From positions 62,001 through 126,000 of the forward strand of contig CANRLH010000004.1 of NCBI GenBank assembly GCA_947631455.1: a stretch of 64,000 bases of DNA, read 5' to 3'. The translations under genes and the position numbers were made by a program. The stretch's first letter is position 1; each line of letters starts with the position of its first letter. The stretch is from an uncultured Clostridia bacterium. GTDB lineage: Bacteria; Bacillota; Clostridia; Oscillospirales; Ruminococcaceae. This document shows, piece by piece, positions 50,604 through 56,081 of the stretch. A model generated the notes under the pieces. The model had not been told where the DNA came from, searched no databases, and saw only the letters and a program-made list of their open reading frames with translations.

Positions 50604-51563
50604 CTATAGTCGCTTATTAAGCCCTAAGAACGCCGCTCCGATAATACCCGCATCATTTCCCAATGTCGCGATAACTATCTTCGTATTTTTAGGCGAATTT
50701 CTCGTATACACCTCTTTTGAAACTATCTCCTTAACGGGGACTAAAAGCTCATCCCCCTCGTTGCACACCCCGCCGCCTATGCAAAGCACATCCGGCTGAA
50801 AAATGTTTATCATATTAGTGATTCCCAAAGCAAGGTACTTTATATACTTATCGCAAACATCTTTTGCAATTTCGCATCCCATGCGCATAGCGTTAAAAGA
50901 ATGCCTTGCAGAAACTTTACCGTCGTTTTCAGCCATTTTCGCCATTATGCAGTCCGGATGTTCTTTGATAGCCTCCCTTGTCATACGCACAAGTCCTGTA
51001 GCAGATGAAAAGACCTCAAAGCAGCCCTTTCTGCCGCAGGTGCATTGGGGTCCGGACGGATCAATCACCGTGTGTCCTACCTCCGCTCCGGCATAGTTAA
51101 AGCCGGAATAAATCCTGCCGTTTATTATTATTCCACCGCCTACTCCCGTTCCGAGAGTGATGCAGACAGCGTCGTTTGCACCTTTTGCCGAACCGGCCAG
51201 AAACTCACCGTAAGCCGCTGCATTAGCATCATTTTCAATATATACCGGCATATCTATATGTTTTTTTATTTCTCTAGCCATATAAAAATCGTTAAATCCA
51301 AGATTGCACGAATACTCAATAACTCCGCTGTCAGTGTTTGCGATCCCGGGAGTTCCGATACCGATGCTCACCACATCCGAAAGCGATATACAGGCAATTT
51401 TTGCGGCTTCTTTTACCAGATCAGCTATATCGGCACATATTTCCTCTCCCAGCCTTGGAAGATTTGTCTTTCTTTCAGCTTTTGATATTATTTTATACTC
51501 CTCATCGACAATTCCCGCAACGATATTTGTTCCGCCGAGGTCGACTCCTGCATAATACTTCAA
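50604..51563 (-). CDS. ROK-family glucokinase
   Basis: 319 residues starting at TTG; the upstream AAGAAAGAAGTG is a weak ribosome site and no ATG is in frame. It has the phosphate-binding DLGGTN near residue 8, the GTPGIAN block, a sugar site ENDANAAA, the GTGVGGG motif and the ROK zinc motif CTCGRKGCFE (about 172-181). ROK glucokinases phosphorylate glucose in the cytosol. It starts the 42-51 kb run of core genes and has a strong promoter. Confidence 0.9.
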   Translation of the reverse strand: MKYYAGVDLGGTNIVAGIVDEEYKIISKAERKTNLPRLGEEICADIADLVKEAAKIACISLSDVVSIGIGTPGIANTDSGVIEYSCNLGFNDFYMAREIKKHIDMPVYIENDANAAAYGEFLAGSAKGANDAVCITLGTGVGGGIIINGRIYSGFNYAGAEVGHTVIDPSGPQCTCGRKGCFEVFSSATGLVRMTREAIKEHPDCIMAKMAENDGKVSARHSFNAMRMGCEIAKDVCDKYIKYLALGITNMINIFQPDVLCIGGGVCNEGDELLVPVKEIVSKEVYTRNSPKNTKIVIATLGNDAGIIGAAFLGLNKRL

Positions 51564-51678
51564 ATCATTAACACTTCTTTCTTAAACGGATCATTCAATA
51601 TTATCATAGTTCCACTGCTCTTAAATATGCGTTTACCTCTGTCATTTAAGCCATATTAACCAAATGTTACATATAGTT

Positions 51679-51707
51679 AGTATACCATATAGGCGTTTTA
51701 AAGTCAA
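51679..51707 (-). promoter_or_regulatory. Promoter of the glucokinase operon
   Basis: On the minus strand, TTGACT (51702-51707), 17 bp, TATACT (51679-51684). It leaves a leader of about 110 nt before the TTG start and lies just downstream of the RNA element's terminator. Confidence 0.8.
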
Positions 51708-51720
51708 CGCCGTATAACAC

Positions 51721-51748
51721 AAAAACCGCAGGGAAAATCCCTGCGGCT
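51721..51748 (-). terminator. Intrinsic terminator of the RNA element / GH30 transcript
   Basis: On the minus strand, a 9-bp perfect stem CCGCAGGGA/TCCCTGCGG with a 3-base loop, followed by five T. Confidence 0.88.
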
Positions 51749-51912
51749 GAGCGTTTCAAAAACTTTTTCACACGCTTTGAAGGACAAACACGATCGCTGA
51801 GGGCAAAGCCTTGCTACGCATTTTCCTGAGTACCCCTTTTAATAGCACCTCGCCATGCGGTGGAGTGATCTTAATGTTTCCCTGCGGCGGCACATGTCTG
51901 CCTAAGCGAATT

Positions 51913-51942
51913 ATTATAATGTTTTACTCCACCTTTGTGCAA
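51913..51942 (-). promoter_or_regulatory. Possible internal promoter of the RNA element
   Basis: On the minus strand, TTGCAC (51937-51942), 18 bp, TATAAT (51913-51918). Transcription would begin near 51907. The spacer contains one arm of the GGTGGAGT inverted repeat. Confidence 0.55.
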
Positions 51943-51972
51943 GGCCTATGCTTAATAAACGTAAATCACGCA

Positions 51973-53955
51973 TTACCACAAATAGCCTGAGCCACGAACG
52001 TGTGCATTTATCACTCCGACATCTGATGTTGTTATATCACCGTCGCCCGATACATCCGCTACTGTAAAGTAGTATCCTGTAAGCTCTGTCATGCCAACAG
52101 CATCAGCATTTGCAAGCCCTACGTCAGCCGTTGTGATCTCTCCATCGCCGTTGACGTCACCCTTTAAATGCAGCTCTGCATCCAGCACAGCTCCTTCTTC
52201 GCCTAACGTAAGATCATATTTTCTGGTAACGCAATTATCTTTTTCAAAAACAACTGTGTATTCGCCTTGTAAAACATTTTCTGCGGAATATGTCATATCC
52301 GAAGCCGAAGTGGTTTCATAAGCTACAAGACCTGAATTATTATCAACAAAGGTTACATCTACCGGCGTGCTGTCTGTTCCCGGAGCTTTTACCGTTCCGG
52401 TCACTGTTTTCCCTTCCGGCATAGTAACACCGTTTACAACAAATGTCGTTATCGAGTTTGCCTTAAGCGTAGCTTCAAACGTGCCGTTTGTCACCGTAAG
52501 CGGCGAAAGCTCCGCCCAGTTCTCACCTGTAGCCATATCTCCACTGGTTCTTATAACGTCAACAGTAGTTCCTTTTTTACCGAACGACGCAAGGTCGTAT
52601 TTAACCGTCTTGTCAGAACCGCTTGTATTAAATGCTACAATCTTTAACTGCTCGTCTGTGTTATTTATAGCAGAAGTTGTGGCATAGTCGCTTGTAGAAA
52701 TAATCGTATCGCCGGGACGAATATATCTCGTATACTGCCCGAATCCGTAATACTTCTTTGTCAAGACAACACTTTCCGTATTCATATCAGCATAGCATAC
52801 TCCCCAGAAACCGTTTGTATCAACATCGTGCTGGCTCATAGTGTCTGGGTCGAATTGATTGTTTTTGTCACAGTAAGAGCCTATCGCCTGCCACATAATC
52901 CATGCCGACGGCTTAAGATCATTTAAGTCGGCCGTTATCTGTGATGCAAAATTAAGAGCAGCTCCCATTTCTCCGGAGTTGGCTCCTTTTGTTCCCCCGT
53001 TATCCGTTTCACTCATCCACAAGTTCACACCCGCTTCTTCGGCTTTTTTTCTCAAGGCTTCGGAGTTATAAGTAGTGTATGTATGAGTATTGTATCTTTC
53101 AAGTTTTCCTAACGCCTCTTCTGATAACTTATTCAAGCTTTTGTTTGTATCAAACGGACTTGTCTCATCCAACCCCGACAGCAAAAGATCACCCAATCCG
53201 TGCTTTTGCATAGCCTCGTCCATCGCAAGTATCATAGCAGACTGATTTTCTCCGGCAGTAACCGAACATCCCTCCTGCTTAACTCCGTAATATGATACGT
53301 TCCAGCCATTTGTCGGCTCGTTCATAGGCTCAACACTTACAACATTTACTCCCTCGTCAACGTAATGTTTTACAACAGTCGCCATATATTCTGCAAAGTC
53401 GTCCATCTTATCAATAGTTATGTTGTCCTTCACAGAATCATTAGTGCCTGAGGTACAACCGCTTCTCGTCATAAAATACGGAGCAGAGTTTGAAAACATC
53501 TCCACCAGCATATCAGGGCACTCCTCTATCGACTTCATAAGTACATTTCTCTGATTCGCGTCCTTTGTGAAATCGTAATCAAAAGTGCCTGTCGCCGCAT
53601 TGTAATTTGTCCAGTAGCCCGGCATGTTAGAATCCGAACGGGCTATATGATCGTGGGTAGGATCATCACCGCCGCCGACATTATATCTTATAATGTTGAG
53701 CCCTAATCCGGTGTCGGCATTATACAAAACCTTTGCCGCTTCCCTCGAAGCCTTTTCCGAACTGCCGATTCGGTTTCCGTACCACGCAAGGCTTGTTCCC
53801 CAGCCCTCAAAAACTCCGCCGTTTATAGTCGAGGCGTTTGCGGGGTTAATCTTAACCGTAGTGACATCTGCTTCCGCCGCTGTTGCACTTACTCCGGCGC
53901 AGGAAAAAGAAATAGCCAGTGCCGAGCAAGCTGCTAAAATTTTTTTGCTATTCAT
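51973..53955 (-). CDS. Secreted GH30 glycoside hydrolase with dockerin
   Basis: 660 residues. A signal peptide (1-27, ending ATAAEA), a GH30 barrel with GGVFEGWGTSLAWYG, the acid/base Glu E213 in EPMNEP and nucleophile E316 in LWMSETDNGG, then a beta-sandwich (about 400-505), a carboxypeptidase-regulatory-like domain (about 513-590) and a type I-like dockerin with two calcium loops (GDVNGDGEITTADV and ADVSGDGDITTSDV, about 599-655). The GWGTSLAW start is closest to endo-beta-1,6-galactanase or GH30_5-type enzymes, but xylanase-type substrates remain possible. It should attach to a cohesin scaffold outside the cell. It has its own promoter. Confidence 0.9.
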   Translation of the reverse strand: MNSKKILAACSALAISFSCAGVSATAAEADVTTVKINPANASTINGGVFEGWGTSLAWYGNRIGSSEKASREAAKVLYNADTGLGLNIIRYNVGGGDDPTHDHIARSDSNMPGYWTNYNAATGTFDYDFTKDANQRNVLMKSIEECPDMLVEMFSNSAPYFMTRSGCTSGTNDSVKDNITIDKMDDFAEYMATVVKHYVDEGVNVVSVEPMNEPTNGWNVSYYGVKQEGCSVTAGENQSAMILAMDEAMQKHGLGDLLLSGLDETSPFDTNKSLNKLSEEALGKLERYNTHTYTTYNSEALRKKAEEAGVNLWMSETDNGGTKGANSGEMGAALNFASQITADLNDLKPSAWIMWQAIGSYCDKNNQFDPDTMSQHDVDTNGFWGVCYADMNTESVVLTKKYYGFGQYTRYIRPGDTIISTSDYATTSAINNTDEQLKIVAFNTSGSDKTVKYDLASFGKKGTTVDVIRTSGDMATGENWAELSPLTVTNGTFEATLKANSITTFVVNGVTMPEGKTVTGTVKAPGTDSTPVDVTFVDNNSGLVAYETTSASDMTYSAENVLQGEYTVVFEKDNCVTRKYDLTLGEEGAVLDAELHLKGDVNGDGEITTADVGLANADAVGMTELTGYYFTVADVSGDGDITTSDVGVINAHVRGSGYLW

Positions 53956-53994
53956 AAACGTTTCCCTCCTGTATTAAAAGGTTTGTTTTCTTAC

Positions 53995-54023
53995 ATTATA
54001 AGTTTAACATTTGTCCTTTACAA
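53995..54023 (-). promoter_or_regulatory. Promoter of the GH30-dockerin gene
   Basis: On the minus strand, TTGTAA (54018-54023), 17 bp, TATAAT (53995-54000), with GGAGGG close to the ATG. Confidence 0.7.
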
Positions 54024-54042
54024 AAACTATATAAAACTTGCT

Positions 54043-54858
54043 CTATAATATATTGTTTTTGCTTTTTGACAAAATCCGCTTTCTGAATTCATTTGGTGAA
54101 ACGTCATAGTGCTCCTTGAATTTTCTGGCCATATCGCTTGAACTGGTAAAGCCGCATCTACCGGCAATTTCCGATATTTTGAGCTGTGAATCGTGAAGCA
54201 TATTATAAGCCTTTGTAAGCCGTGTGAGCGTAAGATAATTTCTCGGAGACATTCCCGTCTGCTTTTTAAATATATGTGTGAGGTAAAATTTACTTATATA
54301 AAACTTGTCCGCTATATCTGAAATAAGTATCTGCTCCCCGCAGTTTTCCTGAATATATCTTTGTATCTCAAATACCATCTTGTCGGATTTTTTCATCATT
54401 TCCTCAAGGTATCCAGAGCTCCTAAAAAAATGTATAAGCATCTGGGTCACCGAAGAAATTACAGCATCCTCAGATAAGATATCGTTTGTCTTGAGTTCTC
54501 GCCTGATTTTCTCGAAATAACCAAGGCAGTTAAAGTCATCCTTCAAAACTATCGGACGTTTTGTTATAAATCCCATAATCATATTATAGATTGCGTCCGA
54601 ATAGAACTCTCTTGTATATGTCCAAGGATTTAAAAATATTATCGTTCGCTCATATTGATCAGAATCTTTTATGACTATTCTGTGCTTTATACAACTCGGG
54701 ATAATACACACCGTATTATCAGTCATATGAAATTCGTCATCACCGCACACGATCGATATATGCCCCTTGTGAAGATATAAAATCTCACATGAGGTATGCT
54801 GATGGCTTGGAAAAACCAGTATGCTATCATAGTATTTAAAATGCTCTATGCAGCTCAT
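54043..54858 (-). CDS. AraC-family regulator, upstream of the GH30 gene
   Basis: 271 residues from ATG 54858, placed behind AAAGGAGTTTGAA; an ATG 13 codons upstream has no such site. The N-terminal cupin has HQHTSCEILYLHKG and PSCIKHRI; the C-terminal 100 residues have two helix-turn-helix motifs (ISDIADKFYISKFYLTHIFKK and ISEIAGRCGFTSSSDMARKFKE) and the DVSPNEFRKR end. Its position 87 bp upstream and in the same direction makes it a plausible regulator of the GH30-dockerin gene, though the GH30 gene has a separate promoter. The ligand is unknown, probably a sugar. Confidence 0.9.
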   Translation of the reverse strand: MSCIEHFKYYDSILVFPSHQHTSCEILYLHKGHISIVCGDDEFHMTDNTVCIIPSCIKHRIVIKDSDQYERTIIFLNPWTYTREFYSDAIYNMIMGFITKRPIVLKDDFNCLGYFEKIRRELKTNDILSEDAVISSVTQMLIHFFRSSGYLEEMMKKSDKMVFEIQRYIQENCGEQILISDIADKFYISKFYLTHIFKKQTGMSPRNYLTLTRLTKAYNMLHDSQLKISEIAGRCGFTSSSDMARKFKEHYDVSPNEFRKRILSKSKNNIL

Positions 54859-54950
54859 TTCAAACTCCTTTGCAATATATAATTTACCAGTTCCCATTTA
54901 AAACAAGATATCATAAACAGTGCTTGTTTTCAGGATTTTATCATTATTAT

Positions 54951-54986
54951 AAAAGGGGAAAACCTCACTCTCGGTTTTCCCCTTTT
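54951..54986 (-). terminator. Intrinsic terminator of the leu operon
   Basis: Perfect 14-bp stem AAAAGGGGAAAACC/GGTTTTCCCCTTTT with an 8-base loop, T-rich on the minus strand. Confidence 0.9.
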
Positions 54987-55004
54987 AAGCTTTCATAAAA
55001 CTTT

Positions 55005-56081
55005 CTACTTGATCTCCTTCGCAATAAGATCTCCCATCTCACTGCATGAAACCTGCGTTTTGCCTTCGCTCATAATATCGCCTGTTCTGAAACCGTCGTT
55101 AAGCACAGTATCAACAGCACTTTCAATAGCGTCTGCCTCTTTTGACATATCAAATGAATATCTCAGCATCATAGCAGCAGAAAGAATTGTCGCTATCGGA
55201 TTAGCCTTGTTCTGTCCGGCAATATCCGGCGCTGAGCCGTGAATAGGCTCATACAGTCCCAAAGTTCCCTCACCGAGCGATGCGGACGGTATCATTCCAA
55301 GCGAGCCTGTTATCATAGACGCCTCATCCGACAGAATATCTCCAAACAAATTCTCTGTAACCAAAACGTCAAACTGAGCAGGATTACGAACCAACTGCAT
55401 TGCTGTATTGTCAACCAGAATGTCTGAAAACTCAACGTCAGGATATTCCTCAGCGACCCTGTGAGTAACCTCTCTCCAAAGGCGGGAAGAATCAAGTACA
55501 TTTGCCTTGTCGACCGAGTGGACCTTTTTTCTTCTCTTTCTTGCCATTTCAAAGGCAACTCTTGCGATCCTTTCTACCTCATAGTCTGAATACGCCATAG
55601 AGTCACATGCAGTTTTTACTCCGTTTTCATCAACAGTCGTTGACCTCTTTCCAAAATACGCTCCGCCAATAAGCTCACGTACTATAACAAGATCAAGCCC
55701 GTTTTTTGTGATCTCCTCCTTAAGCGGACAAGCACCTGAAAGTGCGGGAATAAGCTTTGCCGGACGGATATTTGCAAACAGCTTAAGCGCTCCTCTTATA
55801 CCAAGAAGTCCTGCCTCCGGGCGTTTATCTCCCGGAAGATCGTCCCATTTATGTCCGCCTACCGCTCCGAGTAAAACGCTGTCCGAGTCAAGGCACACCC
55901 TTACCGTTTCCTGAGGCAGAGGTACGCCTGTTGCGTCAATAGCGCAGCCGCCCATAAGCACATCACGATACTCAAATGTATGTCCGTAGACTTTAGCTAT
56001 CCTGTCAAGCACCTTCTGCGCCTCGGTGACAATTTCGGGGCCTATTCCGTCTCCCTTTATAACTGCTATCTTCTTAATCAT
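55005..56081 (-). CDS. leuB: 3-isopropylmalate dehydrogenase
   Basis: 358 residues, standard length. It has KGDGIGPEIV, the GAVGGHKWDDL loop, the RELIGGAYFG block with the catalytic Tyr, the KANVL lysine and the DNTAMQLV, GTLGLYEPIHGSAPDIAG signature. It oxidises 3-isopropylmalate with NAD in leucine synthesis. It is last in leuC-leuD-ybjQ-leuB; leuA is not in the window. Confidence 0.97.
   Translation of the reverse strand: MIKKIAVIKGDGIGPEIVTEAQKVLDRIAKVYGHTFEYRDVLMGGCAIDATGVPLPQETVRVCLDSDSVLLGAVGGHKWDDLPGDKRPEAGLLGIRGALKLFANIRPAKLIPALSGACPLKEEITKNGLDLVIVRELIGGAYFGKRSTTVDENGVKTACDSMAYSDYEVERIARVAFEMARKRRKKVHSVDKANVLDSSRLWREVTHRVAEEYPDVEFSDILVDNTAMQLVRNPAQFDVLVTENLFGDILSDEASMITGSLGMIPSASLGEGTLGLYEPIHGSAPDIAGQNKANPIATILSAAMMLRYSFDMSKEADAIESAVDTVLNDGFRTGDIMSEGKTQVSCSEMGDLIAKEIK

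Follow-up and report, generated by a model that had tools for sequence, protein, structure and literature searches.

The minus-strand segment between a GH30-dockerin gene and a ROK-family glucokinase gene in the window (the whole 64-kb stretch of DNA that was analysed) is best understood as a degenerate copy, probably unable to move, of a MITE-like and probably IS1182-mobilised element that would now provide the 3′ tail and the terminator of the GH30 gene, a reading that we consider likely. At the level of sequence, homology, dispersal, ends, target duplications and covariation are established for the element family as a whole. The evidence for each is laid out below, together with the alternatives that bear on the role of the window copy and on the molecular form in which the fold acts.

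The structured segment in the window

The GH30-dockerin gene (51973-53955) and the glucokinase gene (50604-51563) both lie on the minus strand, and the gap between them is devoid of open reading frames of at least 60 amino acids, in agreement with the first-pass annotation, which had described it as gene-free and equipped with a strong terminator. The latter was equally confirmed in the form of an intrinsic terminator hairpin followed by its first T's (51748-51724, minus strand; 1 site compared to 0.5 ± 0.9 in shuffles), read here as the right-hand copy of a target hairpin, and the element would thereby end the GH30-dockerin transcript. Positions 51740-51947 contain no open reading frame of at least 60 amino acids and thus no DDE transposase within the window copy. 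The segment folds with a minimum free energy of −73.5 kcal/mol (z = −2.44), which was equalled in 2 of 200 shuffles.

The conserved part (51910-51777, minus strand) is organised as successive hairpins, P1 to P3, which are followed by a 3′ hairpin and then by the terminator. P1 (51878-51910) carries the conserved loop GACATGTGC on a stem with 8 of 12 positions in Watson-Crick pairing; the P2 region (51841-51868) is shortened and weakly paired; P3 (51777-51830) retains the conserved stretches AGCAAGGC and AGCGAT...GTGTTTGTCC; and the right-end hairpin (51748-51776) includes a degenerate right terminal repeat, AGCGTGTGAAAAAGTTTTTGAAACGCTCA, all on the minus strand. This arrangement differs from the three-way junction of perfect long-range helices proposed earlier. 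The 7-bp helix (GCCTTGC/GCAAGGC) and the 8-bp helix (GGTGGAGT/ACTCCACC) of that proposal do exist; however, they are at chance level and outside of the conserved fold. Among dinucleotide shuffles of the first 190 nt of the segment, with the terminator left out, 145 of 300 contained a perfect long-range helix of 7 bp or more, and 48 of 300 contained one of 8 bp or more. Since the left arms of both helices are placed upstream of the conserved core, the junction is without comparative support, and we reject it in favour of consecutive hairpins.

Distribution of the element family

A covariance model built without the window recovers the segment at 55.9 bits (E = 2.8e-12), as the sole match at E ≤1 in 64 kb. 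When 216 bases of the segment were compared by BLAST with 297 genomes from its family, 17 of them, its own included, gave matches at E ≤0.01. The best match outside its own genome reached E = 9.5e-9, the relatives belonging to other genera; the good ones have two blocks in common, AGGCGGACATGYGCCGCCG and AAAAACGCAGARCAAGGC...AGYGATTGTGTTTGTCC, and among the weaker matches are several short ones that probably arose by chance. With a covariance model of 12 sequences, the window among them, the element was detected in 31 of 396 family genomes (19 of 126 genera), in 13 of 394 genomes sampled from the order and in 2 of 391 sampled from the class, these two being of the same order and one being the window's own, which is included in all of these counts. 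Searches that spanned more than 40 genomes were run with stricter filters, at the loss of weak matches. Copy number varies from the single copy in the window's own genome up to 59 in a genome of 2.1 Mb, in which more candidates were scored.

Within the genus, the model identifies 1 of 15 genomes, with nothing at E ≤0.1 in the other 14. Conservation of the gap among relatives and covariation were the marks by which the RNA was earlier proposed to be judged, and the outcome is divided: the gap lacks conservation within the genus, whereas the RNA is strongly covarying and dispersed in other genera. The description as an unassigned structured RNA is borne out by the homologues, the covariation and the absence of a match in Rfam. 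At gathering score, Rfam models recognised only two tRNAs in the whole window and nothing at the element, the best weak match at 51600-52050 having E = 3.4; and in 19 further loci searched by E-value they gave 4 matches, all below gathering score, which we take as chance (best E 0.0084 at 28.2 bits, compared to a gathering score of 49.5). The exact P1 pattern was absent from the viral contigs searched, and plasmids and phages, searched by BLAST with one element, gave no match. Divergent relatives in two single-contig genomes (L163-L171 in G318 and G220) keep the P1 loop and show neither a right-end hairpin nor a duplicated terminator; among them, L167 and L170 look like one locus in two species.

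Conservation of the fold and the strand on which it acts

As judged from the alignments, conservation of the fold is beyond doubt. Among 102 distinct aligned copies, 96.6% of the cells pair and changes on both sides are found in 39 of 41 pairs, with a covariation score of 0.432 compared to at most 0.072 when the partners are slid; the alignment is one fitted to the model and contains the model's seed sequences. P1, counted without gaps, has 388 of 468 cells in Watson-Crick pairing over 39 distinct hairpins, as compared to at most 262 in 1000 shuffles, and its loop deviates little from G[AG]C[AG]TG[TC][GA]C. This count involves 53 of 103 matches, hand-picked so as to thin near-identical copies, 5 of the 53 being off the loop pattern.

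The mismatches in paired positions are strongly asymmetric on the sense strand. G-T exceeds A-C by 287 to 44 cells, and by 127 to 43 after removal of three G-T-dominated pairs; 28 pairs have more G-T and 7 more A-C. The 35 rows from one genome show G-T and A-C in a relation of 31 to 4, with unpaired columns in balance (58 G>A, 57 C>T). Because copies share ancestry, the close copies of that genome were recounted once per position and type, which reduces the relation to 10 to 4, or to 8 to 4 without one odd row. The bias of G-U over A-C favours the sense strand as the one on which the fold is maintained, and RNA is the simplest, not the sole, reading of it. The fold might alternatively act as single-stranded DNA or as a cruciform, for example as a substrate of transposition, which we regard as unlikely though deserving of some weight. 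The element is mobile, with hairpins as its ends and its target, and variants that differ in the middle again contain P1 and the right-end hairpin, all of which would suit a fold in DNA; single-stranded DNA, moreover, tolerates G-T as well, and the excess in close copies is as small as just noted when each position is counted once. A cruciform, however, is not expected to leave G-T far above A-C on the sense strand, and autonomous elements are found without the P1 loop motif.

Ends and target duplications of intact copies

Intact relatives have the attributes of MITEs in that they are short, free of transposase, multicopy and bounded by terminal inverted repeats. They are mostly ∼220 bp long, with variants ranging roughly from 70 to 300 bp. 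The terminal repeats comprise about 15 bp, CAGNCTGTCGAAAAA at the left and TGAGCGTGTCGAAAAA, read inward, inside the right-end hairpin. From 60 fetched copies, the layout is left end, AT-rich spacer, P1 (with GACAUGYGC as the loop in the family), P2, P3 and right-end hairpin. The ends are retained also where the middle is a different one, and so is the GACATG hairpin in all such variants but the shortest (L200). In nine such loci (L135, L141, L142, L159, L198, L110, L111, L150 and L194; about 150-300 bp), the ends are shared and the GACATG hairpin is kept while the middles differ, which suggests that several RNA types share one mobility system. A minimal element of about 100 bp (L201) consists solely of a P1 with perfect pairing and two ends of the left type that are nearly identical.

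The intact elements are commonly flanked by two direct copies of one complete terminator stem-loop. After 60 loci were entered, in 12 of which one or both ends were not found, and loci without the core pattern were dropped, direct flanking repeats of 14 to 35 nt scored above 100 shuffles in 36 of the 46 copies with both ends found. The right-hand repeat folds at ≤−10 kcal/mol in 34 of these 36, all except L088 and L099, and the score of L101 is marginal. Another 44 copies, the window's included, gave 16 above the controls, and 14 of these are hairpin repeats (weak in L004) that include 11 other genomes, with marginal, non-hairpin repeats in L165 and L169. No duplication above controls was seen in 10 of the 46 and 28 of the 44 copies, and the copies tested from G318, G220, G381 and G577 gave no hairpin duplication. 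Insertion is at gene ends: by a crude open-frame criterion applied to 36 of 40 loci, a same-strand gene ends within 150 nt upstream in 29 of 36 copies, an opposite-strand gene end is faced by 30 of 36, and none has neither. A T-rich tail accompanies the right hairpin in 21 of 31 cases as compared to 7 of 31 for the left hairpin.

A probable IS1182-type partner

The element is probably mobilised in trans by an IS1182-family transposase, as suggested by IS1182-family elements of related genomes, whose ends match and whose target is of the same kind. Two such elements, L236 (1562 bp) and L247 (1522 bp), have the ends CAGCYTGTMGAAAAA and CAGACTGTCGAARAA, which match those of the RNA element, and both are placed between terminator hairpins, in the form of 39-bp identical copies at L236. 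The hairpins at L247 (G415:C44) have identical stems and inverted loops, as if one had flipped. The ends of a third element (L237) match too, but the terminators to its left and right differ. Of five transposases tested, four score above the NCBIfam cut-off for IS1182, and the fifth, that of L237, is truncated and below it. In each of four genomes (G415, G025, G134 and G137), inspection by eye showed both the RNA element and an IS1182-type end similar to it in sequence.

Transposases with the PF13751 domain were detected in 12 of 29 further carrier genomes, and were detected neither in the other 17 nor in the window's own genome; another 4 carrier genomes, including the 59-copy draft, gave 0 of 4. 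The 59-copy genome and the window's genome are both drafts, one in 60 contigs and the other in 19. Lone terminal-repeat matches in one genome had no transposase recognisable by eye in the first 420 nt inward. The RNA core is absent from 20 IS1182 loci, and the loop motif is absent from the 6 of them that were tested.

The window copy as a degenerate member

Like other members of the family, the window copy has the right-end hairpin directly followed by the terminator hairpin, and its right end aligns to the typed right-end consensus better than any of 1000 shuffles. At the other side, the stretch where the left terminal repeat is expected (51911-51947, minus strand) is unrecognisable, with 197 of 200 shuffles aligning as well, and the left copy of the terminator hairpin is absent (row L039). 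With both features missing, the window copy is a degenerate member at best, and an intact, mobile copy is excluded.

The degenerate copy might have been co-opted as a small RNA or a 3′-UTR regulator, freed from the GH30 transcript or made from an internal promoter, which we consider improbable. Core and 3′ end are still recognisable though the left end is gone, the copy is the only one in its genome, and a promoter-like site upstream of P1 matches at 10 of 12 positions. However, orthologs are missing from 14 genomes of the same genus, P2 is shortened and P1 imperfect, and the internal promoter of the first-pass annotation did not withstand comparison with shuffled sequence: 2 sites were found compared to 1.4 ± 1.5 in the controls, and one of the two is the glucokinase promoter. 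The −10 box of the internal site ends at 51913, only 2 nt before P1, so that transcription beginning at the customary spacing would leave out part of P1. Of 101 aligned copies, 9 have an exact TATAAT in the 40 nt preceding the core, whereas none of 40 copies from the 59-copy genome has one; a chance-level site of such rarity in other copies is rejected as a feature of the family.

A 6S-like RNA and a sugar-responsive leader of the glucokinase gene, both suggested in the first-pass annotation and favoured by the position upstream of a sugar kinase and the promoter-like site, are extremely improbable. The segment has no match to RF00013 even at E ≤10, and the 6S match of this genome is on another contig (G000:C2:22253-22467, minus strand; 70.3 bits to RF00013). 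Between the RNA and the glucokinase gene are located the terminator and a separate promoter-like site, TTGACT-17-TATACT (51707-51679, minus strand), downstream of the RNA; wherever the region upstream of a relative's glucokinase gene was readable, the promoter sequence TTGACTTT recurs at the locus (13 of 13). The glucokinase gene is present in the rest of the genus, in whose 14 other genomes the model finds no RNA, and relatives of the RNA are placed at the ends of many genes. The leader is thus unsupported.

Immediately upstream of the glucokinase gene, two relatives (L222 and L223) have leuB, which in the window is two genes further up, so that the block of AraC-type regulator, GH30 and RNA element in the window may be a gain; in 51679-56081, these three separate leuB from the glucokinase gene. 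GH30 was found in none of the glucokinase loci of 14 relatives (about 1.5 kb of flank), and no empty site was recognised among them, 13 having a readable upstream region. By eye, the 3′ half of the terminator looks similar to the region upstream of glucokinase in the nearest relative (L220), where the element is absent. We also observed perfect complementarity of 11 nt between the 3′ arm of P1, CCGCAGGGAAA (51887-51877, minus strand), and that of the terminator (51736-51726, minus strand); in this one copy the P1 arm could compete with terminator folding, whether by chance or in the manner of an antiterminator-like switch.

Discussion

We envisage the insertion of the element as follows. An IS1182-family transposase, acting in trans, would recognise the target hairpin and cut at the base of the hairpin on both strands, with the effect that, after insertion, a left hairpin would precede the element and a right hairpin would be followed by the original T-run. 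With the T-run kept at the right hairpin, the upstream gene would still be terminated and its transcript would gain the element as a structured 3′ tail, the position that the window copy would have on the GH30 transcript. Protection of the 3′ end, protein binding via the GACAUGYGC loop and assistance in the element's own spread are candidate roles of the RNA. Our bet is on a selfish element that, by means of its folded tail, ensures a proper end to the host transcript. A direct part of the RNA in the mobility machinery, with the GACAUGYGC hairpin recruiting or controlling the IS1182 transposase or helping to choose terminator targets, appears quite improbable; if true, DDE transposition would here be assisted by an RNA, in a system duplicating terminators as a whole.

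Long direct repeats are listed in some IS1182 entries, in the light of which the whole-hairpin duplication would be less new. Terminators are insertion sites also of group IIC introns, which are larger ribozymes and are not known to duplicate their target on insertion; unlike these, the RNA element has terminal inverted repeats and duplications and is without a match in Rfam. The RNA element is close to the IS1182 family (including IS1272/TnSha1), the terminal repeats of L236 and L247 resembling its own. The targeting of hairpins and terminators is shared with IS1272, for which the accessible text of PMC4923244 describes a blunt cut with deletion of part of the stem-loop and no duplication, whereas the RNA element carries no transposase and duplicates the whole hairpin. 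Pneumococcal BOX, RUP and SPRITE elements and the QMITEs are described, in the accessible parts of PMC3049150 and PMC10969869, as short, non-autonomous and multicopy, with inverted repeats and structured transcripts. The RNA element resembles them in being short and non-autonomous, with inverted repeats and many copies, and differs from them in targeting a whole terminator hairpin, which is duplicated at 19-35 bp, as well as in an internal fold that covaries across genera and families. Surveys of noncoding RNA have come upon multicopy structured motifs that are thought to be selfish, leaving open whether they act in RNA or DNA form (accessible text of PMC11109978); the RNA element was identified with none of the mobile or repeat candidates in that text, and might prove identical to one of the 250 candidates placed in its supplements. 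Neither the family nor whole-terminator duplication is described in the open-access literature searched, and the combination of such duplication with a strongly covarying passenger was found neither there nor in Rfam. MITEs whose transcripts are structured and IS1182 elements that seek palindromes are both familiar, and it is the present family that is apparently uncatalogued.

Lastly, the current study has importance in advising caution, for a structured stretch that follows an enzyme gene may be the relic of a mobile element and no regulator of its neighbours. It adds a repeat family, absent from Rfam and from the literature searched, to an important order of gut bacteria, some hosts of which have dozens of copies at the ends of their genes. 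It raises the testable question of why a transposon passenger retains a conserved, RNA-like fold. The pattern of duplication, finally, suggests a gentle strategy of insertion, whereby the whole terminator is copied and a working one is left behind.
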